Shown: one piece after another, positions 12,540 through 24,016 of the stretch
How positions within the stretch are numbered: the first letter of the stretch is position 1
How the letters are laid out: every line of letters begins with the position of its first letter
Origin: a virus
Virus record (IMG/VR): IMGVR_UViG_3300044730_000596
Location: 1-24,065 of that record
Strand: one strand, 5' to 3'
DNA: 24,065 nucleotides
Notes under the pieces: model-generated
What the model saw: only the letters and a program-made list of their open reading frames with translations
Database searches by the model: none
Told to the model about the DNA's origin: nothing
Translations under genes and position numbers: made by a program

Positions 12540-12803
12540 ATGGCTAAAGCACCAGGTTTTGACGGTACGCAACCCTGCGCTACTGTAAACGGAGATATGT
12601 TTTTTCCAGAAACTGGTGCTGAAACTATAGAGTTAAAACCTGTACTAAATAAGATATGCAATAGTTGCCAGTTCCAAACACCTTGTTTACAGTATGCGTT
12701 AGAAAACGCTGTTCAAGGTTTTTGGGCTGGCACTGTTGAACGTGAAAGACGACTTATGCGTAAGCGTTTAAATATTGTAGTTAAGCCGTTAGTTTATTAC
12801 TAA
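12540..12803 (+). CDS. WhiB-family iron-sulfur transcription factor
   Basis: An 87-aa protein with the WhiB signature: C13, then C40-x2-C43-x5-C49, four cysteines that hold a [4Fe-4S] cluster, followed by GFWAGT (60-65), equivalent to the family's G-[VI]-W-G-G turn, and a basic C-terminus (RERRLMRKR). WhiB proteins bind the main sigma factor and change promoter choice. Phage versions, such as WhiB of mycobacteriophage TM4, interfere with host WhiB2 and septation and contribute to superinfection exclusion. The AAGGAG lies in the last codons of the upstream gene, so the two are coupled. This is the best evidence for an actinobacterial host. It might also regulate the divergent promoter next door. 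Confidence 0.93.
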   Translation: MAKAPGFDGTQPCATVNGDMFFPETGAETIELKPVLNKICNSCQFQTPCLQYALENAVQGFWAGTVERERRLMRKRLNIVVKPLVYY

Positions 12804-12812
12804 ATATTAGTA
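12798..12812. terminator. Palindrome at the convergent gene ends
   Basis: TACTAA-ATA-TTAGTA is a perfect inverted repeat with 6-bp arms that contains the stop codons of both whiB and the minus-strand gene facing it. The stem is AT-rich and no U-tract follows, so termination here would be weak. Confidence 0.3.
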
Positions 12813-13543
12813 TCTGGTTCATTAAGTTTAAGTTTAGTTTTGTGGTTGTGCTCCCACTCAGGCTTAGTTCCATCTGGACGTTGACCTCTTAAGTACATCT
12901 TTCCAAACACACCCATGCCAGCTTTATCTGTAAGGTTTCTCCATTCAGAAAAATCTCTATTGTGTTTATCTATATCTGTTCCGTACTCTACTGGATGATG
13001 TTCTAAAGTAAACTCTTCAAGTTCTGTCTTGTGTATAGGTATAAAGAAGAACACTGGGTCTCCTTTTTTAAAGGTAACAACTTTTCCAGGCTTAGTTAAT
13101 TTCCAATTAGCGGTTGGAGAAGAAAACATCCAGTCTGACTCTACAATTCCGCTTAACGGAGACGCCCCAGGAATTACTAGGTTAGGGGCCCCCATAATCC
13201 ATAAATTCCAATCTTTAGAGGTTCTTGGTATAGCGTTTAAATGAAAAGTTACTATTCCGTTACCAGTGCCATTATCAGCAAATCTAATTCCATTTTGTTC
13301 TCTCCCACAAATAATATTAGTTCCATCGGCTGAAGTAGTCCCGTCCCAAACAACTTCTACATCCTGTGCTAGACGTATACACCAACCGTGCCTGTTTGCG
13401 TAAGTCATGGGCAAACACCTGTAAGCGTATCCTTGACCTGTTTGGTCCATCCACTCTCGGTCTACTGGAGCTTGTTCAATATTCATTCTGCTACCTACAG
13501 GAACAGTATGATAAAACTTAATGATTTTGTCTGTTGTGGTCAA
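12800..13543 (-). CDS. DUF6065-like protein
   Basis: A 247-aa protein that resembles the DUF6065 family: the segment REWMDQTGQGYAYRCLPMTY followed by ANRHGWCIRLAQDVEVVWDG, then a beta-rich core (GIVTFHLNAIPRTSKDWNLW) and GDPVFFFIPIHK. The family has no known reaction; its members occur in phages and in gene clusters for surface polymers. The start is TTG, chosen because GAGAGGAG lies seven bases upstream; the next ATG is 19 codons in. It overlaps the glycosyltransferase gene by 26 bases and is the last gene of that operon, so a role in glycan or fibre decoration is plausible but unproven. It converges with whiB, with stop codons sharing four bases. Confidence 0.6.
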   Translation of the reverse strand: MTTTDKIIKFYHTVPVGSRMNIEQAPVDREWMDQTGQGYAYRCLPMTYANRHGWCIRLAQDVEVVWDGTTSADGTNIICGREQNGIRFADNGTGNGIVTFHLNAIPRTSKDWNLWIMGAPNLVIPGASPLSGIVESDWMFSSPTANWKLTKPGKVVTFKKGDPVFFFIPIHKTELEEFTLEHHPVEYGTDIDKHNRDFSEWRNLTDKAGMGVFGKMYLRGQRPDGTKPEWEHNHKTKLKLNEPDTNI

Positions 13544-14495
13544 GTCTATACTCCTCTCTCCAAAGTTTAAATAATTTACCTATATCGTACCCTAAGTATT
13601 GATACAGGTCATCTACTGAGCGTTTAGTGCCAAAGTGTTCAAATCCTGTAGTTCTATCTATTATGTGGTCAATTATTAAATTAGTAGCTATAGGTTTATT
13701 TATCTCCCACTCATCATAAAAATCGTTCCACAGTTTGTTTAAAGGCATAAAAGCCTCTACGTCTTGCGGGTACATATGTCTTACAGGTAAACTATAAGGA
13801 AAGTAAACGTCCCAACCATTAGTAAATGCCATAAGACTGTGGTAAAGCTCTTCTCCCCAAAATAACACCCAGCTTGGTTGGGTAACAGTTAAAAAGTATT
13901 CTGCTGGTCCAAAAATAAAATGACCGCATACGTACCATCCTTTAGCAGCAAGGTTATCTTTTCTTTCTCTGCCTACAAGATGAGGAACTAGCTCATAGGT
14001 GTCAAACAAAGATTTTTTAGCAGTATCGGTGTTATAAGTTAAATCGCTCACTGTGTTTGGAGAGTACTCTTTAAGTGTGTCAACTGGTTTTGGAGTCCAC
14101 CCGGGCAAGTAGGTACTAAAAAGTAGTTTAGAATCTAAACGCTGTGTTGTTTCTCTGTGCTCTTCTACAAGAACGTTGTCCCAGTTACTCTCAAACCTGC
14201 TGTGAGCGTCTATTTGTAAAACATAGTCGTAACTGTGGTCTAGCCAACTGTTTGCCAAAACTCTGCATTTGCTTACACTAAATACGCATCCAGGGAGGTC
14301 TACGGAAAAGTTTACTTTACCATCGTAGGTATTAGTTATAGAAGCGTCATCGGATTCAAACTCTTGAACAAATACCCCTACATGAATATCGTGTAGGCCC
14401 GAAGCAGTGCTAAAAAGATTATCTACAGTTGACTGAACTAACGGGTCTCTATAAGACGCAATTGAGACATATATTTTTGCCACATTGCCTACCAC
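13518..14495 (-). CDS. Glycosyltransferase, GlcNAc (PF11397/GT60-like) type
   Basis: A 325-aa protein with the pattern of the GlcNAc glycosyltransferase family: KIYVSIASYRDPLVQSTVDN at the start, then VFVQEFESDD, CRVLANSWL and the metal/UDP-sugar motif VLQIDAHSRFESNWD (about residues 92-106, a D-x-H version of DxD), and later GEELYHSLMAFTNGWDVYFP. Characterised relatives include Dictyostelium Gnt1, which attaches GlcNAc to hydroxyproline of Skp1. Here the acceptor may be a fibre protein or a host glycan. The start is a GTG at 14493-14495; a second GTG at 14481-14483, giving MAKIYVSIASY, is equally good because neither has a clear ribosome binding site. It overlaps both neighbours and is therefore co-transcribed with them. 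Confidence 0.82.
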   Translation of the reverse strand: MVGNVAKIYVSIASYRDPLVQSTVDNLFSTASGLHDIHVGVFVQEFESDDASITNTYDGKVNFSVDLPGCVFSVSKCRVLANSWLDHSYDYVLQIDAHSRFESNWDNVLVEEHRETTQRLDSKLLFSTYLPGWTPKPVDTLKEYSPNTVSDLTYNTDTAKKSLFDTYELVPHLVGRERKDNLAAKGWYVCGHFIFGPAEYFLTVTQPSWVLFWGEELYHSLMAFTNGWDVYFPYSLPVRHMYPQDVEAFMPLNKLWNDFYDEWEINKPIATNLIIDHIIDRTTGFEHFGTKRSVDDLYQYLGYDIGKLFKLWREEYRLDHNRQNH

Positions 14496-14893
14496 TTACC
14501 TATTGGACAAGTCGCTTCTTTTAACTTTGTTTTAGCTTGCATAAAGCATCCGCATTTTTTACAGGTTTTAGTAGCTTTAATTAAATGTTCGCAGCCCATA
14601 CAAATGTCTAATCTGCTTTTAGCTTCGTCGTCATCAGTATAATTTGCTTTATTAAGTAAGTCCCAAGGTTTAACCGTTCTTTTTTTTGCTACTTCCTCTG
14701 GGAGTGGAGAACAATCAAACTCTCCATCATCATGTCTACAACCAACACCAACCTCTGGATTGTCTGTTAGGTCTACTATTGTGGGGTTTCCAAGAAGAAT
14801 AGCGCCTAGTCTAGGCGGGGTTCCAATAAAGTCTACAACTTCTCCGTCTAGTACAAACCCTACTCTTTTTGAACCCTCTGGTAGTCCATCCAT
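14489..14893 (-). CDS. Zinc-ribbon protein of the fibre-decoration cassette
   Basis: A 134-aa protein. The C-terminal 40 residues hold C-x2-C, C-x2-C-x-C and a final C (ICMGCEHLIKATKTCKKCGC, then TCPIGKW), enough for one or two zinc sites. Similar short ribbons occur as separate small proteins in T4-like cyanophages, from memory. The N-terminal half (GFVLDGEVVDFIGTPPRLGA, then GNPTIVDLTD) looks like a small beta domain. The start follows AGGAG. The gene overlaps the glycosyltransferase gene by seven bases, so the products may act together. The function is unknown. Confidence 0.7.
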   Translation of the reverse strand: MDGLPEGSKRVGFVLDGEVVDFIGTPPRLGAILLGNPTIVDLTDNPEVGVGCRHDDGEFDCSPLPEEVAKKRTVKPWDLLNKANYTDDDEAKSRLDICMGCEHLIKATKTCKKCGCFMQAKTKLKEATCPIGKW

Positions 14894-14934: not shown

Positions 14935-15525
14935 TTATAAAATTGGTATCCACTTTTGTGGGTACTGCCTCTCTAGCATTGCTATAGGGGCTACGCTAAA
15001 AGTCAATAGTTTTACATCCGCTTCCCCGTAAACAATACGTTTACCTGCCTCAAACAAAAGTATGGTTCCTTTGGGGGTTGAGTAGGGGGTGTCGTTAATA
15101 ATAGTAGTTGAGGTATCTAAAGACTCTATAAAGTAAATGCCAGAGAAGCAGGGCGCCCTAGTGCCCCCCATGTCATACCAGACATCTGTTCTAACACCCT
15201 CTACATAATCTGAAGAAATATAATATCCAACTTTACTGCTTAGCTCGTAGTAGTTAAGGGCCTCAGTCAGTAGTCCTCTAATAATTTGCAAAGCTTGATT
15301 TATTTGTTTGTTATACGCACCAAGATAATTTTTTGAATTTGGGTCTTCTACAGGAACAAGTCCTAAAAAATCTGCGGCTACTCCGCTATTAAATTTATAC
15401 AGCTCATCTGGTGGGTAGACTTTATTAATTACTGTATCTAATATGTTTTTAGGCTCTGATGCACCTTTAAATACTTTAAAAGGTTTTAGTTCCCTATTTA
15501 ATAGTTCTTCTTCTAGATTACCCAT
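14935..15525 (-). CDS. Jelly-roll-like protein resembling 2OG-Fe(II) oxygenases, iron ligands absent
   Basis: A 196-aa protein. The C-terminal half (YYISSDYVEGVRTDVWYDMG, CFSGIYFIESLD, then TPKGTILLFEAGKRIVYGEA and VKLLTFSVAP) follows the strand order of prolyl-4-hydroxylase-type jelly rolls, including the P-x-G-x-x-x-x-F turn. However, the whole protein contains no histidine, so the H-x-D...H iron triad is missing and normal oxygenase chemistry is not expected. It could be a degenerate or binding version of the fold, or an unrelated cupin-like protein. I start it at ATG 15525, which overlaps the upstream stop by eight bases behind GGGGG, and not at a TTG eight codons earlier. The neighbours are a GNAT-like gene and a glycosyltransferase. 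Confidence 0.6.
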   Translation of the reverse strand: MGNLEEELLNRELKPFKVFKGASEPKNILDTVINKVYPPDELYKFNSGVAADFLGLVPVEDPNSKNYLGAYNKQINQALQIIRGLLTEALNYYELSSKVGYYISSDYVEGVRTDVWYDMGGTRAPCFSGIYFIESLDTSTTIINDTPYSTPKGTILLFEAGKRIVYGEADVKLLTFSVAPIAMLERQYPQKWIPIL

Positions 15526-16090
15526 TAAAGCCCCCAATTCGTTGACCAAACCATATCACAGGAGATGCTGGGTCTCTAGGAGGTTCTTGTTCAGGCATAA
15601 AAGCCCTACCACCAGGCATTGGAGAGTTTGGCTTATTGTGGTTCATAACTTTAGAGAGGGTAGCGTATAGCTTGTTGGTTATAGGACTTCTATCTCTAGT
15701 ACCTTCTAACAGGATACCTCCAGCATTACTATAAAATACTGAACGTAGAACACTAGCTAAAAACTTCCAATATCCTCTTCTTCTGTATATTGGATTTGTG
15801 TACATCCTGTTTGACTCTACTGTTTTATTAGAGTCCGTGTAAGAACCTAAGTAATCTGGTGCTTGGATAGTGTACATATCAGGGTACTCATTTGGAGTAA
15901 ATTGAGAAAAAACTATAGTTCCGTTAGGGTACTTATTGTTTTTATACAGCCCTATAGATATCTTTATTATGTCAGCGTTGATAGAGCAACTGTGAATCCA
16001 TGAATTACCCAGCTCTGTAGGGTACTGAGATAGGCTCATCATAGCGTGACCATCAATTGTTATCGGAGTTATAGTTGTAGTTGAGTCCAT
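15518..16090 (-). CDS. GNAT-like N-acetyltransferase (tentative)
   Basis: A 190-aa protein. Residues about 100-135 (NPIYRRRGYWKFLASVLRSV, then FYSNAGGILLEG) resemble GNAT motif A, where R/Q-x-x-G-x-G/A binds the pyrophosphate of acetyl-CoA, preceded by strands with NGTIVFSQFTPNEYP. The last 45 residues are Pro/Gly-rich (PMPGGRAFMPEQEPPRDPAS). The third motif position is Tyr-Trp instead of Gly, so activity is uncertain. It directly follows the cysteine-rich fibre gene (two-base gap, no good ribosome binding site, probably re-initiation) and overlaps the jelly-roll gene. It may acetylate a fibre or a sugar; both are inferences. Confidence 0.5.
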   Translation of the reverse strand: MDSTTTITPITIDGHAMMSLSQYPTELGNSWIHSCSINADIIKISIGLYKNNKYPNGTIVFSQFTPNEYPDMYTIQAPDYLGSYTDSNKTVESNRMYTNPIYRRRGYWKFLASVLRSVFYSNAGGILLEGTRDRSPITNKLYATLSKVMNHNKPNSPMPGGRAFMPEQEPPRDPASPVIWFGQRIGGFNG

Positions 16091-16092
16091 AG

Positions 16093-18063
16093 TTATTCTA
16101 TTGTATTTGAGTCGTGTACCAACATTCTTTCTGTGTAGAACACATCATAAGGTTCGCAGTCTATAGACACAACCTCATGAGGTATATCGGCTTTTCTAAG
16201 TTGAGTAATATTTTCCCAAGAGCTTGAGCTGTAGTTGTATACCTTATCTTCCATAAACACCTCAGAAGACAAAATAAACATAGCTTTAGCGCCTCGTTTT
16301 ATCAATACGTAGTGAGTATCAGAGAACAAGTCGTTATTAATCATAACTCCTGAAGGCGCTATTCTTCTTACTACATTAACTACAGTTGTTTCTACAGTAG
16401 CAATATCAGGGTTTTTACCTGTCCAGTTTATAGCAGCAAGGTTTGCTCCCGCTAGCTCTTCATAAGGAAACCCTGTTATATCAGCAGAGAGTAATACATC
16501 TCCAACTTCGATAGACCCAGCAGGAGCTAGCCCATCTGGAGTTCTTACTAATGTTGAAATGTTGACTGATTTACCTTGCCATCCGCCGCTAAAATCTCCG
16601 CCGGGAGGAAATAGTGGTCCTGGGTCAGGCGGTGGTGGTGTTGGGGTACCTCCGCCACTGTTTTCACTTCCTGAACCGCCACCAGTTGGTGCGGCAGCAT
16701 TTGAATTGTAATCGCCTTGACAGAGATTTGGGCAAGCACCTGGAGTTATACACCAAGTTCCGTTACCGTAGGTTCCACAAGCGCCTCCGTAGCTGACGCA
16801 AGTATTGCAATCAACGGCTGGAGGTGGTGGTGGCGGTGGTGGAGTTGCACCACTACAAACAAAAGTTTCACCGCATGTAGTAACGGTAATGGTTGCTTGC
16901 CCACCGCAGGAAGACCGATACTCTGTGTAGTAGTACATAAACGTACAGGCTGGAGGTGGTGGTGGCGGTGGTGGTGATGCACTAGTTGCAATACAAGGAC
17001 CATAAGTATTAGGGCAGCCAAAATTAGTTATACATACTGACCGTGTTCCAGGAAGATAGAGGCCCGCAGCATAAACGGTGCACGCTTCAGAAGAAGTTCC
17101 AAGCGCACACGTTACACAATCTAGTGCCGGTGGAGGTGGAGGAGGCGGAGCTGTACCCGTTGATTGACAAGCTGGATACGTTCCAGTGTTGTTATAGCTA
17201 CATGTGGTGTTGTAACCACTACCACTAGCATTTTGACTTGTTGCATAAGAGTTATAACTGCAGTTTCCTACTCCAGCGCCTTGAACAGATGTGGTGCAGT
17301 AATAAGCGTATGAAGAAGCAGCTGGAGGCGGTGGTGGCGGTGGAGGAGGTGTTACTCCTGTGCAAGCACCTTGAATAGTAGAATTACAATAAGCGTCGGA
17401 ATAAGAATAAAGAGTTGCATTACGAGTCCCTGATGCGCAAGTACCATCTGCAACAGTTGTTGCGGTAGTTCCATAAAATGTTCCGCAGTATAACCCCGCA
17501 GAAAATCTATTACCACAAGGTCCTGTCTGGCTAAGAGATGTGCAAGGACTGCAAATGTCGGCTATGTTGTTGTTATCACAATAACAGTTTCCACCAGTAA
17601 AAGTTTGTGGAGTAGTGCAACCACCTACGCCACCACTACAGGTGGGTTGGGATACACTTCCTGAAGCGCCACAAATCCAGTTGCTTGGATTACCAGAAAG
17701 GTTTTGCCAGTAAGAACAACAAGAGCCTGTTGTACATCCACCAAATGCAACACCATTATCTGTTCCGCACACAGCTCCGCCTGCAACAACTGATGTACCG
17801 TTACAGTAATAATATCCGATGCTTACGCAAGAAACTAAACCGCCACCGCCAGGTGAAGGGGGCGCAGGAGGAGGGGGAGTTGGTGGAGGAGGAGGAGGAG
17901 GAGGAGGTGGAGGAGGAGGAGCTGCTGCTGGAAAAGATTGTTTCCAAATACCGTTAGCTCTTACATAAGTGTTAGTTACAGGTCGCCAAACACCAGCTAC
18001 TTTTACATAGTAAGCAGAGGCTACTTGCCATCCGCCAGGTGTTTTAACATACCCATGTGACAT
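16093..18063 (-). CDS. Cysteine-rich, poly-proline modular fibre-like protein with C-terminal Hint-like domain
   Basis: A 656-aa mosaic. Residues 1-45 carry three repeats of Y-V-(K/R)-x-x-G-x-W (YVKTPGGWQ, YVKVAGVWR, YVRANGIWK), a motif of phage fibre N-termini. A 13-proline run opens a linker (about 48-72). Five cysteine-rich modules follow, separated by runs of 7-9 prolines and holding 18, 4, 6, 4 and 6 cysteines; the two 6-Cys modules are similar (both begin DC-x2-C). A Gly/Ser/Pro hinge leads to a Hint-like (hedgehog/intein) domain at about 499-656: SVNISTLVRTPDG, IEVGDVLLS, DTHYVLIKRG and VFYTERMLVHD. The intein Cys1 is Ser and the final Asn is Asp. It is likely a secreted-type or virion fibre stiffened by disulfides. 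No signal peptide is seen. Confidence 0.75.
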   Translation of the reverse strand: MSHGYVKTPGGWQVASAYYVKVAGVWRPVTNTYVRANGIWKQSFPAAAPPPPPPPPPPPPPTPPPPAPPSPGGGGLVSCVSIGYYYCNGTSVVAGGAVCGTDNGVAFGGCTTGSCCSYWQNLSGNPSNWICGASGSVSQPTCSGGVGGCTTPQTFTGGNCYCDNNNIADICSPCTSLSQTGPCGNRFSAGLYCGTFYGTTATTVADGTCASGTRNATLYSYSDAYCNSTIQGACTGVTPPPPPPPPPAASSYAYYCTTSVQGAGVGNCSYNSYATSQNASGSGYNTTCSYNNTGTYPACQSTGTAPPPPPPPALDCVTCALGTSSEACTVYAAGLYLPGTRSVCITNFGCPNTYGPCIATSASPPPPPPPPACTFMYYYTEYRSSCGGQATITVTTCGETFVCSGATPPPPPPPPAVDCNTCVSYGGACGTYGNGTWCITPGACPNLCQGDYNSNAAAPTGGGSGSENSGGGTPTPPPPDPGPLFPPGGDFSGGWQGKSVNISTLVRTPDGLAPAGSIEVGDVLLSADITGFPYEELAGANLAAINWTGKNPDIATVETTVVNVVRRIAPSGVMINNDLFSDTHYVLIKRGAKAMFILSSEVFMEDKVYNYSSSSWENITQLRKADIPHEVVSIDCEPYDVFYTERMLVHDSNTIE

Positions 18064-18069
18064 GCTGAC

Positions 18070-18219
18070 CTACGCACTCGTGTATGTAAGCCAGATATCT
18101 CCGTCTTGACCTACGGTGTTAACAGGTGCACCAGTAGAAACAAAGATGTTACGGTCGCCGTCATCATTACTTGAAAGTACAGTTGCGCCATAGACGCTAA
18201 CATCACCAGGTCTTGGCAT
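18070..18219 (-). CDS. 49-aa beta-rich fibre-associated protein
   Basis: A short gene encoding MPRPGDVSVYGATVLSSNDD and onwards to a C-terminus with GQDGDIWLTYTSA. The ATG (18217-18219) shares one base with the TGA of the upstream gene (TGATG), and the TAG at 18070-18072 lies six bases before the ATG of the cysteine-rich gene, so it fills the gap exactly. The G-x-x-GDIW turn recurs in phage fibre ends and resembles the GDAWFDP segment in the collagen-like protein of this window. Coupled position argues for a real structural or fibre-cap protein. Confidence 0.72.
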   Translation of the reverse strand: MPRPGDVSVYGATVLSSNDDGDRNIFVSTGAPVNTVGQDGDIWLTYTSA

Positions 18220-21006: not shown

Positions 21007-21173
21007 TCTTCGTCCTTCGGATTTCTAAGCGGGTAGGTCACCGCCCAAGCAACTAATGTTCCCACAATTGCGTATCCCACAACGGTCTTAGCTGAGCCAT
21101 CTAGAACTACCCAGGCAATAAACATTCCTAATAGAGTCCATAGCTGGTCAATCATATCTTTAACTATCTTCAT
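21003..21173 (-). CDS. 56-aa two-helix membrane protein
   Basis: The frame from ATG 21173 to TGA 21003 starts MKIVKDMIDQLWTLLGMFIA and continues with two hydrophobic segments (LWTLLGMFIAWVVLDG and VVGYAIVGTLVAWAVTYPL), ending in charged NPKDEE. It overlaps both neighbours by ATGA, a strong sign of a real coupled gene. Size and topology suit a small holin or a holin partner. It fills the gap between the big exported protein and the lipoprotein. Confidence 0.75.
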   Translation of the reverse strand: MKIVKDMIDQLWTLLGMFIAWVVLDGSAKTVVGYAIVGTLVAWAVTYPLRNPKDEE

Positions 21174-24016
21174 GGTTTACGTCTCCTAACTCCCTTACTA
21201 TCTCCGGAAGGAGCTCCTCCCCCAGAATTTCCTCCACCACTTGAGCCTCCAGAGGTTGAACCTCCAGTAGCACCTGCTGCTGCACCAACTGCATTCATAG
21301 CAGCACCTGCAGCCACAACGGCAGCAACAACCATTTCAGTTGCTTCTTCACGTTCTTCAGGGGACATGTCTGCACCGATACTTCCTAGTGCTTGAAGTGC
21401 CTCACCTGGGTCGCTAAATATTGCGCCAACTAATTCGGATGGGTTCTCTAGTAAAACTAGAGCCGCAGCTACGTCTGCTGTAATTATAACTTCATTACCG
21501 TTTTCATCCTGCCTAACCTCAACAGGGGTCTGTTCAGGAAGGTCTTGATAAGCAATGCCAGCTTCTTGAATTTGTTCTGATGTAAGAGTTTCTCCAGGAG
21601 CTACTGATTCAATAAGGGCCTCTGCTACAAGTTCTTTTTCTGCTGTTGTGAACTTTCCATCTCCAGCAAGAGTTTCTGAAAGGTTGTTTACCTCTGCTTG
21701 TGTAATCTCTCCGTCAGCGGATAAAGCATCTAAGATTAAAGACTCTTCGGCAACGGTTAATTTACCGCCATCGCTTAGTGTTTCAATTAAAGCCGTAGCT
21801 TCAGCCTCTGTAACTTCTCCGTCAGCCATTAAGGAATCAACAACAGCATCAGACTCTGCTGCTGTTAAATTTCCGTCTGATAATGCCTCTTCAACTTCTG
21901 CAACTACTTCTTCTGATGTGATAGGCTCTGGCTCTACAATAGGAGGTTCTAATGGTTCTATGGACGGATTTTCTGGCTCTGGCTCTGGTAACACTGGTTC
22001 TGGTGCTGGTTCCTCGGGTATGGAAGGTTCCAGAGGCGCCTCGGGCTCTACGGGTGGTGCTTCGGGCTCTACCGGTAGTGGTGGCTCTTCTATGGGTGGT
22101 AATGGCTCTTCTGTGGCAGGCTCAGTAGGTGGCTCACCAATCGTTCCCTCAGGGTCAGGGAGTGCCACAGGTGGTTCAGGCTCTACAGGAGGCTCAGGAA
22201 CGGGTTCTGGAGTTGGCTCAGGAACAGGTACGGGTTCTGGGATTGGCTGCGGCTCAGGTTCAGGAGTTGGAACGGGCTCAACGGGTTGCACTGGAATGGG
22301 ATTTACAGGGGTCTCGACGGGCGCTGGTTCAGGTTGAGGAACAGGTTGAGGTTCTGGAACCGGGGTGGGCTCGGGGACCACTGGTGGAACTGTAGGAGGT
22401 TCTGGTGAAGGTTCGGGTTGTGGTGTTGGCTCTGGTTGTGGGGCTGGTGTTGGCTCTGGCTGCGGTGCGGGAGTTGGCTCGGGTGCTGGAGTCGGCTGAG
22501 GAGTTGGAGTTTGAAGAGCTGTGACTGCAGCAGCAACTGTAGATGTAGCGGTATCAGCTAAAGTATTAGCAGTTGTAATTGCTGTTGTAGCTGTTGATTG
22601 GAGGGTAGTTAATGTTTGAGTTTCTGTTATTAATGTGGTCTGAGCTGTTGCAAGTGCTGTCACTGCTGTTGTTTGCACTTCTGTAACAGTTGCAAGAACA
22701 GCAACTTCAACTGCTTTAACTTCTGTTTTATCAACTACTACTGCTGTTTGGCTTGTAATTTGAGCCGTTAAAGTTTCATTGGTTACATTGGTCATTGGCT
22801 GTACTGGAGCACCTGCAGTTTCACGAACACCAATACGAGGACCGTTATGCAGTTGTGTTGTGTTTCCCGCAACGGTTCCTATACCAGTCCATTCCCCTGT
22901 TGTTGGATTGACTGTCATCTTCCAATTTACATTTGTAATAGGGCTATTTGGTTCTGCAAATTTGTGCAAATTCCAGTCAACTTCTAGAGTAGTTTCAGTA
23001 GTCTTTACTACTGTAGATGAGTTAGGTCCAGCACTTTGAAAGTCGCTGCCAAAGACTGAGATATGTGCTCCTGCTGGAAAATCCCACCAGTTATAGTCGC
23101 CATTACCAAAGGTAATAGTTGCTTTTGAAGTCACATAAATTTGGCTGTTTGTTCCTTGCCCTTCATAAACTGTGTTACCCATTTTTATATCAAAAGGCGT
23201 ATTAATTTTTGTAAAGCCGTCATACATAACTGGAAGCGTTGTAGTAGTCACGGTTGGGGTTTCTGGAGCAACAGGGGCTACATAGCCTTCGGTTGTATAG
23301 GTTTTGCTATCTGAAGGGGTATTTTGTAAAGCAGTTAATGTTGTTTGAGCATTAGTTAGGTTAGTTGTTGCAACTGCTACTACTGCTGTTTGTGACTCAA
23401 CTGCTGCTGTGGCTGTAGCAACAACTGCGGTTGCAGTAGTAACGTCCTGCGTTACTACGGCTACTACTGCTGTTTGTGACTCAACTGCTGCTACTGCGGT
23501 CACTGCTACGGCTGTTGCTGACTCTGCCGCTGCAATTGCTGTAGTTGCTTCAGCTACTGGAACAGCAGCAGCAGCTACTTGTTCAGTACTGGCTGCTGCA
23601 ACCGCAGTGCTTAATGCTATAGTTGCGTTTTCAACTTTTGTTTCAATAGTAGAGGGGGTAACTGATGTGGTGGTTTCTGTTTGGGTTGGGTTTGGGATTG
23701 GCGTTGGACTGGGTGTTGGTGAAGGTGATGTTGAGGTCTCTGAAGGAGCGGGTGAAGGCTCTGGAGTTGGCTCGGGGCTCGGGGCAGGACTTGCCTCAGC
23801 ACCAGAATTCGTACTGGAAGTTTGAGGGTCCGAAGTTACAGAAGAAGGTTCTGGACTTGGAGATGGAGTTGGAGTCGATTCGTTCGAAGACTCTGTGGAA
23901 GCAGGACTAACTGCTACCTGTTCTGGGGCAGGGTCAGTAGCGCTCGCGGTTGATTGACCAAGCAAAAATAGAAATAATGTGAGGACTGTTGCTGCGAATA
24001 TGCGCAGTATTAACAT
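21170..24016 (-). CDS. Large exported Ala/Pro/Glu-rich protein with NIDO-like and DG-repeat regions
   Basis: A 948-aa protein. A Sec signal peptide (1-26, ATVLTLFLFLLGQSTASA) is followed by a Ser/Pro/Thr/Glu linker to about 120, an Ala/Val/Thr-rich helical part (125-235), a beta-sandwich (about 264-400, with PFDIKMGNTVYEGQG and YNWWDFPAGAHISVFGSDFQ) that recalls NIDO-type extracellular domains, a second Ala/Thr helical part (410-500), about 195 residues of Pro-Glu repeats (503-698), five DG-x-[LVIF]-T-x-AE repeats (711-803) and an Ala/Gly/Ser C-terminus ending RRRKP. No LPxTG or C-terminal anchor is seen. It is likely secreted into the wall of the infected cell. It heads the lysis operon. The function is unknown; a wall-spanning or exclusion factor is possible. 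Confidence 0.8.
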   Translation of the reverse strand: MLILRIFAATVLTLFLFLLGQSTASATDPAPEQVAVSPASTESSNESTPTPSPSPEPSSVTSDPQTSSTNSGAEASPAPSPEPTPEPSPAPSETSTSPSPTPSPTPIPNPTQTETTTSVTPSTIETKVENATIALSTAVAAASTEQVAAAAVPVAEATTAIAAAESATAVAVTAVAAVESQTAVVAVVTQDVTTATAVVATATAAVESQTAVVAVATTNLTNAQTTLTALQNTPSDSKTYTTEGYVAPVAPETPTVTTTTLPVMYDGFTKINTPFDIKMGNTVYEGQGTNSQIYVTSKATITFGNGDYNWWDFPAGAHISVFGSDFQSAGPNSSTVVKTTETTLEVDWNLHKFAEPNSPITNVNWKMTVNPTTGEWTGIGTVAGNTTQLHNGPRIGVRETAGAPVQPMTNVTNETLTAQITSQTAVVVDKTEVKAVEVAVLATVTEVQTTAVTALATAQTTLITETQTLTTLQSTATTAITTANTLADTATSTVAAAVTALQTPTPQPTPAPEPTPAPQPEPTPAPQPEPTPQPEPSPEPPTVPPVVPEPTPVPEPQPVPQPEPAPVETPVNPIPVQPVEPVPTPEPEPQPIPEPVPVPEPTPEPVPEPPVEPEPPVALPDPEGTIGEPPTEPATEEPLPPIEEPPLPVEPEAPPVEPEAPLEPSIPEEPAPEPVLPEPEPENPSIEPLEPPIVEPEPITSEEVVAEVEEALSDGNLTAAESDAVVDSLMADGEVTEAEATALIETLSDGGKLTVAEESLILDALSADGEITQAEVNNLSETLAGDGKFTTAEKELVAEALIESVAPGETLTSEQIQEAGIAYQDLPEQTPVEVRQDENGNEVIITADVAAALVLLENPSELVGAIFSDPGEALQALGSIGADMSPEEREEATEMVVAAVVAAGAAMNAVGAAAGATGGSTSGGSSGGGNSGGGAPSGDSKGVRRRKP

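Follow-up and report, generated by a model that had tools for sequence, protein, structure and literature searches.

A mosaic, fibre-like viral protein with a predicted C-terminal Hint fold, a fixed non-canonical residue set and two co-conserved downstream genes

What might a Hint domain do at the C-terminus of a viral protein that otherwise consists of cysteine-rich modules separated by poly-proline stalks? The window analyzed here is the full 24,065 nucleotides of IMGVR_UViG_3300044730_000596, a 24-kb virus record with WhiB, terminase, portal, capsid, collagen-like tail protein and CHAP genes. Its virus is uncultured and probably infects water-dwelling actinobacteria. The WhiB gene indicates an actinobacterial host and is also found in isolated Ca. 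Nanopelagicales phages (PMC10202952); the nearest relatives of the window terminase are the terminases of Streptomyces phages. A first-pass annotation placed the protein at 16093-18063, and a 656-aa ORF on the minus strand does occupy these positions. It is a real gene, with frame and architecture kept in relatives on other contigs. Its parts and the two genes that follow it are:

16093..18063, minus strand, mosaic fibre-like protein (656-aa ORF; relatives known)
17920..18063, minus strand, N-terminal module, residues 1-48, three YVK..GxW repeats, 0 Cys (PHROG 36019/25859, E 2e-5)
17848..17919, minus strand, poly-proline stalk 1, residues 49-72 (13 + 4 Pro)
17350..17847, minus strand, Cys module 1, residues 73-238, 18 Cys, second half hypervariable
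17323..17349, minus strand, poly-proline stalk 2 (9 Pro)
17149..17322, minus strand, Cys module 2, residues 248-305, 4 Cys
17128..17148, minus strand, poly-proline stalk 3 (7 Pro)
16975..17127, minus strand, Cys module 3, residues 313-363, 6 Cys
16951..16974, minus strand, poly-proline stalk 4 (8 Pro)
16843..16950, minus strand, Cys module 4, residues 372-407, 4 Cys
16819..16842, minus strand, poly-proline stalk 5 (8 Pro)
16699..16818, minus strand, Cys module 5, residues 416-455, 6 Cys, travelling module CNTCVSYGGxCGTYGNGTWCITPGxCPNxCQGDY
16573..16698, minus strand, Gly/Pro linker, residues 456-497
16093..16572, minus strand, C-terminal Hint domain, residues 498-656, with stop codon (from profile and structure comparison)
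16567..16572, minus strand, K498-S499, presumed scissile junction, with S499 at the Cys1/Cys258 position
16312..16323, minus strand, block B SxxH motif, S581-H584
16141..16167, minus strand, block F S633-I-D-C636-E-P-Y-D-V641, with S633 at the motif C2 (F4) Asp position and C636 invariant
16108..16116, minus strand, H650-D651-S652, with D651 at the terminal Asn position
15518..16090, minus strand, 190-aa GNAT-like partner gene, beginning 2 bp past the fibre gene
14935..15549, minus strand, cupin/2OG-like partner gene, 196-204 aa, without Fe-binding HxD...H

Several other minus-strand genes were noted in the window. A collagen-like tail protein with a CBM5/12-like stretch is encoded at 160-1767, and a 948-aa Pro/Ala-rich protein with an apparent signal sequence at its start and no family match at 21170-24016. 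The DUF6065 protein at 12800-13543 (E 3.9e-56) is found in most close relatives as strongly diverged alleles (28% versus 85-99% identity). A possible 49-aa ORF (MPRPGDVSVYG...GDIWLTYTSA), below the ORF cut-off, lies at 18070-18219, flanked by the 18219 gene and the fibre gene.

The Hint-like C-terminus that the first-pass annotation proposed is borne out by both fold and profile comparisons, and its proposed boundary at residue 499 is the exact structural start of the domain. Structure prediction for residues 499-656, one of the checks suggested at that stage, gives a Hint fold with AF2 pLDDT mostly above 90 across residues 500-653. The 41 best PDB chains in a Foldseek search are all Hint proteins, headed by the bacterial intein-like domain 2lwy (E 2.4e-7). 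VIA-align superimposes the model on 6y75 (Z 17.7, rmsd 2.0, 137 aligned) and on hedgehog 1at0 (Z 16.8, rmsd 1.9, 130 aligned), and scores Z 13-18 against some 50 Hint entries, in keeping with the horseshoe beta fold of this superfamily, in which the N- and C-terminal junctions lie next to each other. In this register, model residues 499..651 match residues 1..440 of the RecA intein; residue 499 falls on hedgehog C258, and 651 on the terminal residue 440 of the intein. In a search with a profile of 23 relatives, the four best matches among PDB sequences are a bacterial intein-like domain (E 5.7e-5) and inteins, and no non-Hint fold comes near the Hint scores. Curated Pfam Hint models do not match the window protein; two matches to relatives, both under the cut-off, are PT-HINT (E 6.8e-5) for a jumbo-phage protein and Intein_splicing (E 0.004) for L039. 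Peptidase_S74, the tail-fibre intramolecular chaperone, has no Pfam match at the C-terminus, which the Hint fold wholly occupies. Because profile, AF2, Foldseek and VIA results agree, the predicted Hint fold of residues 499-653 is a firm assignment.

The residues that occupy this fold are non-canonical and nearly fixed. Position 1 is Ser and block B is SxxH in every one of 30 distinct sequences, with Ser replacing the canonical Thr of TxxH. Lys at -1 and a His-Asp-Ser end are found in 29 of them, the exception being L039, which has Phe and Tyr-Asn-Val. S633, at the C2 (F4) Asp position, and C636 are also invariant, a result that rests on an alignment of 23 sequences because the regular expression behind the 30-sequence count demanded SIxCEP. 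Three intein positions are replaced in the window clade: the C2 (F4) Asp by Ser, the block F His by Asp and the terminal Asn by Asp. The NX-motif His preceded by Arg or Lys, a mark of Ser1 inteins (PMC10189870), has no counterpart, as no His is conserved between the block A strand and block B, judging from the sequence alignment of relatives. Lacking these intein residues and the NX His, the domain might react slowly, depend on help or have no activity. The Lys at -1 is notable since the sequence upstream of it is unrelated between groups of relatives. The window clade has thus altered several catalytic positions together and then retained them.

The class 1 intein features looked for at the end of the domain, a terminal Asn/Gln and a C-extein with a +1 nucleophile, are absent, and Asp651 and Ser652 are followed by 4 residues and the stop. 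No sterol-recognition region, as in the hedgehog Hog domain, lies behind the Hint domain, where only 4-5 residues remain after D651. The His-Asn end of A-type bacterial intein-like (BIL) domains is likewise absent (His-Asp in 29/30, Tyr-Asn in L039). A class 3 intein reading of the invariant C636 was rejected, as this Cys aligns at F7 and not at F4.

The window clade also shares two downstream genes. The GNAT-like gene is present in all 48 contigs (window included) that have a Hint domain and enough downstream sequence, either directly next to it or within about 0.6 kb. The cupin-like gene follows in every Hint contig that reaches far enough, with other genes intervening in a few. This order is kept whether the Hint-tailed gene has a Cys-rich, PASTA-type or fn3-type N-terminal part, and the total includes contigs from a reverse search with the two partner families, which yielded 15 that have the same arrangement. 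Partner genes lack a Hint neighbor only where the contig ends just upstream, which includes L137 and L160, whose GNAT-like match is at the contig edge. Both partners are absent beside Hint domains that end in Asn (L039, L040, L041, L054, L056, L057 and L082). Since the clade is a single lineage with many near-identical contigs, the linkage represents a strong association rather than 48 independent events. No Hint relatives were found among bacterial genome contigs, and none of the isolated phages searched has the GNAT-like gene or the travelling 6-Cys module.

The first partner is weakly identified as GNAT-like: its model has a pLDDT of 68, and the top Foldseek and VIA rows are almost all GNAT-fold proteins, but the best scores are E 0.017 and Z 6.2. 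The second looks cupin/2OG-like by eye and from weak Cupin_2 matches. Its family alignment has no conserved HxD or second His of the HxD...H iron site of 2OG-Fe(II) oxygenases and prolyl hydroxylases. Two further genes lie nearby on the minus strand. A small Cys-rich ribbon-like protein at 14489-14893 (phrog_13558, DUF6171-like) accompanies the cassette in many relatives and also occurs in the partner-less L039. A GlcNAc transferase of PF11397 (13518-14495, E 2.5e-31), beside a poly-proline and a collagen-like gene, belongs to the family of the Skp1 hydroxyproline GlcNAc transferase, which modifies hydroxyproline in Dictyostelium. Hydroxyproline modification was rejected as the principal interpretation, since HxD...H is missing from the 2OG-like protein and the GlcNAc transferase is undetected in several relatives.

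The interpretation we favor, at slightly better than even probability, is that the protein is a virion display fibre whose C-terminal Hint domain acts at the K498-S499 bond, with the help of dedicated partners, to mature or attach the fibre. The N-terminal YVK..GxW module would probably anchor the fibre, and rigid poly-proline stalks would space a changeable set of small, disulfide-closed modules that meet the host surface. The Hint domain most likely would act once, at maturation. Ser499 would attack the Lys498 carbonyl and convert the peptide bond to an ester, which could then either free the fibre from the Hint domain or hand the new C-terminus of the fibre to an acceptor. The GNAT-like and cupin-like proteins may be dedicated partners of this step. 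The constraint on the active site (Ser1 and block B His in 30/30; K-1 and H-D-S in 29/30) counts for activity, given that the preceding sequence is unrelated between groups, and we place the probability of Hint activity of some kind a bit over one half.

Simple self-removal, in which the Hint domain is a C-terminal maturation domain hydrolyzed off after folding and the partners serve something else, is an unlikely alternative. The domain is C-terminal with merely 4-5 residues beyond D651, Hint-less relatives exist, and Hint domains are capable of N-terminal cleavage (PMC7765530). In the T5 tail fibre pb1, an unrelated intramolecular chaperone is removed (PMC4690869). Hydrolysis of this kind leaves the strict two-way linkage to two partner genes unexplained. 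That same linkage would be expected if the Hint domain were catalytically dead and its fold served only as a docking or trimerization cap for GNAT-like and cupin-like assembly factors, and the replaced C2 Asp, block F His and terminal Asn and the non-conserved NX His agree with such a role. A dead site should drift, however, and here Ser1 and the block B His never vary while K-1 and H-D-S persist in 29 of 30 sequences. We also consider a dead domain unlikely.

A more specific proposal, that the Hint domain is a two-component ligation device, is rather improbable. Once Ser499 had activated the carboxyl of Lys498 as an ester, the GNAT-like protein would pass it to an amine on a virion part or surface molecule with assistance from the cupin-like protein. 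The GNAT fold class handles acyl donors. Such a device would have analogues in hedgehog lipidation and in sortases, with interchangeable adhesins plugged onto one covalent attachment system.

A role as a fibre in the virion is plausible, as suggested by the N-terminal YVK..GxW repeats, the late-gene setting and the database names of distant relatives, which are collagen-like proteins of jumbo phages annotated as virion or tail proteins. AF2 predicts six strands in the N-terminal module with pLDDT 53-62, and PDB sequence searches with the N-terminal and Cys regions gave no useful match. One Hint domain is common to relatives in which the N-terminal part is exchanged for Cys-rich, PASTA or fn3 sequences. 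Compared with its nearest relative (L010), the N-terminus and Hint domain are 100% identical and neighboring genes 97-100% identical. The first half of Cys module 1 is 97% identical, whereas its second half is only 40% and module 3 only 75% identical. Module 5 reappears at 86-97% identity in otherwise different mosaics. This is the pattern that a modular, diversifying host-recognition surface would be expected to leave in sequences. Cys modules occur without any Hint domain in several relatives, so display does not need it.

Alternatively, the protein might be set free at lysis or end up on the host surface rather than be built into the virion. The wall-binding PASTA modules of some relatives would fit this function. 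The late structural setting, the lack of a signal peptide apparent by eye and an N-terminal YVK..GxW module common to many viral mosaics argue against it, and we judge it improbable.

Two other groups of mosaics were encountered in these comparisons. L050-L053, L058 and L072-L074 form a large aquatic-virus family with VTPAVTP/PTPTP/NPSV linkers and Cys modules, no Hint domain, and Cys parity kept in linker-bounded modules. L054, L056, L057 (1286-4714) and L082 (4001-5113) carry a canonical Cys1-type Hint at the C-terminus; L054, L056 and L057 lack the block B His, and the L082 Hint ends in SHNK-stop.

The counts of 18, 4, 6, 4 and 6 Cys per module and the runs of 7-13 Pro between modules reported by the first-pass annotation are both correct; the runs are 13, 9, 7, 8 and 8 residues long, and there are two extra runs of 4. 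The 39th Cys is the lone C636 inside the C-terminal domain. Every full-length Hint-tailed Cys-rich relative has an even Cys total before the Hint domain (38, 42, 44, 46, 48 or 50), and each module is also even (for example, 28/6/4/6 and 30/6/4/6, with 28 or 30 Cys at the position of module 1). The count was extended to mosaic proteins that were found via the Cys modules and N-terminus and have PTPTP, VTPAVTP or NPSVNPSV linkers. In this wider family, 97% of 128 linker-bounded modules have an even Cys count, whereas randomly placed cuts yield 51%, and at most 66% in 500 trials. Dereplication at four similarity thresholds leaves 62/64, 40/41, 25/25 and 27/28 even modules (p = 1e-16 to 1e-7; about 2e-11 for 40/41; a first count gave 59/61), although distant common ancestry may remain among them. 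Odd totals were found in four full-length proteins without a window-type Hint (L051, L052, L055 and L059).

Evenness is thus beyond chance, and this statistical rather than chemical evidence strongly supports the earlier suggestion that these modules are built for disulfides. Disulfides would fit the counts but are not directly proven by them. The AF2 model is mostly below pLDDT 50 in the Cys region, with residues 321-360 of module 3 reaching 73-79. The disulfides might form after lysis, once the virion meets oxygen. Among nine contigs searched for oxidation helpers, three have a thioredoxin; the search for Erv/ALR found no match but is uninformative because its positive control was equally silent. 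Metal binding by the modules is very unlikely. CxxC motifs are present, and parity would also be favored if two or four Cys held a metal, but two-Cys modules are common and argue against zinc sites, counts of 2, 6 and 18 are unsuited to Zn(Cys)4, and the composition is rich in Gly/Ser/Thr/Asn/Tyr.

A true intein or mobile element within the gene would have the same fold, but it is extremely improbable given the terminal Asp, the lack of an endonuclease, the constant C-terminal position on unrelated proteins and the lack of a C-extein, which itself makes splicing very unlikely.

Among known systems, BIL domains (C. thermocellum 2lwy and T. thermophila BUBL1 BIL2 6y75) are the best profile and structure matches and share the Hint fold and the lack of a sizeable ligation partner. 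The window Hint differs from them in having Ser1 rather than Cys1, H-D-S rather than the A-type His-Asn, a fixed K-1 and two co-conserved genes. The hedgehog autoprocessing domain (1at0) is also a C-terminal Hint behind a displayed protein, with C258 equivalent to S499; the viral domain has Ser for this Cys, no sterol-recognition region and different downstream partners. Cysteine-less Ser1 inteins (Aes123 PolB1 9hth and PolB16) share Ser at position 1, the block B His and Ser at +1, whereas the window Hint has a terminal Asp and lacks a C-extein, a conserved NX His and the C2 Asp. The same profile finds a C-terminal Hint (E 1e-12 to 1e-14) in collagen-like "virion structural" proteins of Erwinia, Yersinia and Dickeya jumbo phages that have tail-protein neighbors. 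Unlike the window, these Hints (Yersinia fHe-Yen9-02, Erwinia pEa_SNUABM_17) have the canonical Cys1, C2 Asp and His-Asn, and their proteins are collagen rather than Cys-rich and lack GNAT-like or cupin-like partners. If the window Hint is active, it would resemble the T5 pb1 and K1F endosialidase chaperones in C-terminal self-processing of a phage fibre at Ser, although these are trimeric coiled-coil chaperones of unrelated fold.

Predicted structures of three proteins from uncultured Caudovirales in BFVD (A0A6J7WKC1, A0A6J5NY54 and A0A6J5MFV5; "Hint domain containing", PASTA_pknB, fn3) match the window model and are probably of the same kind. They are uncharacterized, and their partner genes and residue set are not described in the literature searched. 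The first-pass annotation knew of no described phage protein with the full combination of features. This stands in that none was found in the open-access literature, but it must be qualified by the uncharacterized relatives in IMG/VR and by those that BFVD already names for a Hint domain. The phage inteins described in that literature belong to TerL and other enzymes, and none of the papers found deals with Hint domains of phage fibres, with the fixed residue set or with the partner genes. Each element has precedents of its own: Hint domains, mosaic fibres and fibre C-termini that cleave themselves are already known (PMC7765530; PMC4690869). The first-pass annotation had not noted that relatives swap their N-terminal parts, that the non-canonical Hint residues are fixed or that two downstream genes are co-conserved.

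Hint domains are familiar from hedgehog, inteins and toxin systems as agents of covalent C-terminal processing. Here the Hint domain is a constant C-terminus on interchangeable phage adhesins, with an active site that is changed but frozen and two obligate neighbors. Should it be active, it would give phages a new means of maturing or attaching the fibres used in host recognition; it would also be a processing domain that relies on Ser and tolerates oxidizing conditions. Cysteine parity offers a simple test for disulfide modules that requires only sequence, and it suggests that many aquatic-phage mosaics are oxidized outside the cell, which virion proteomics could address.
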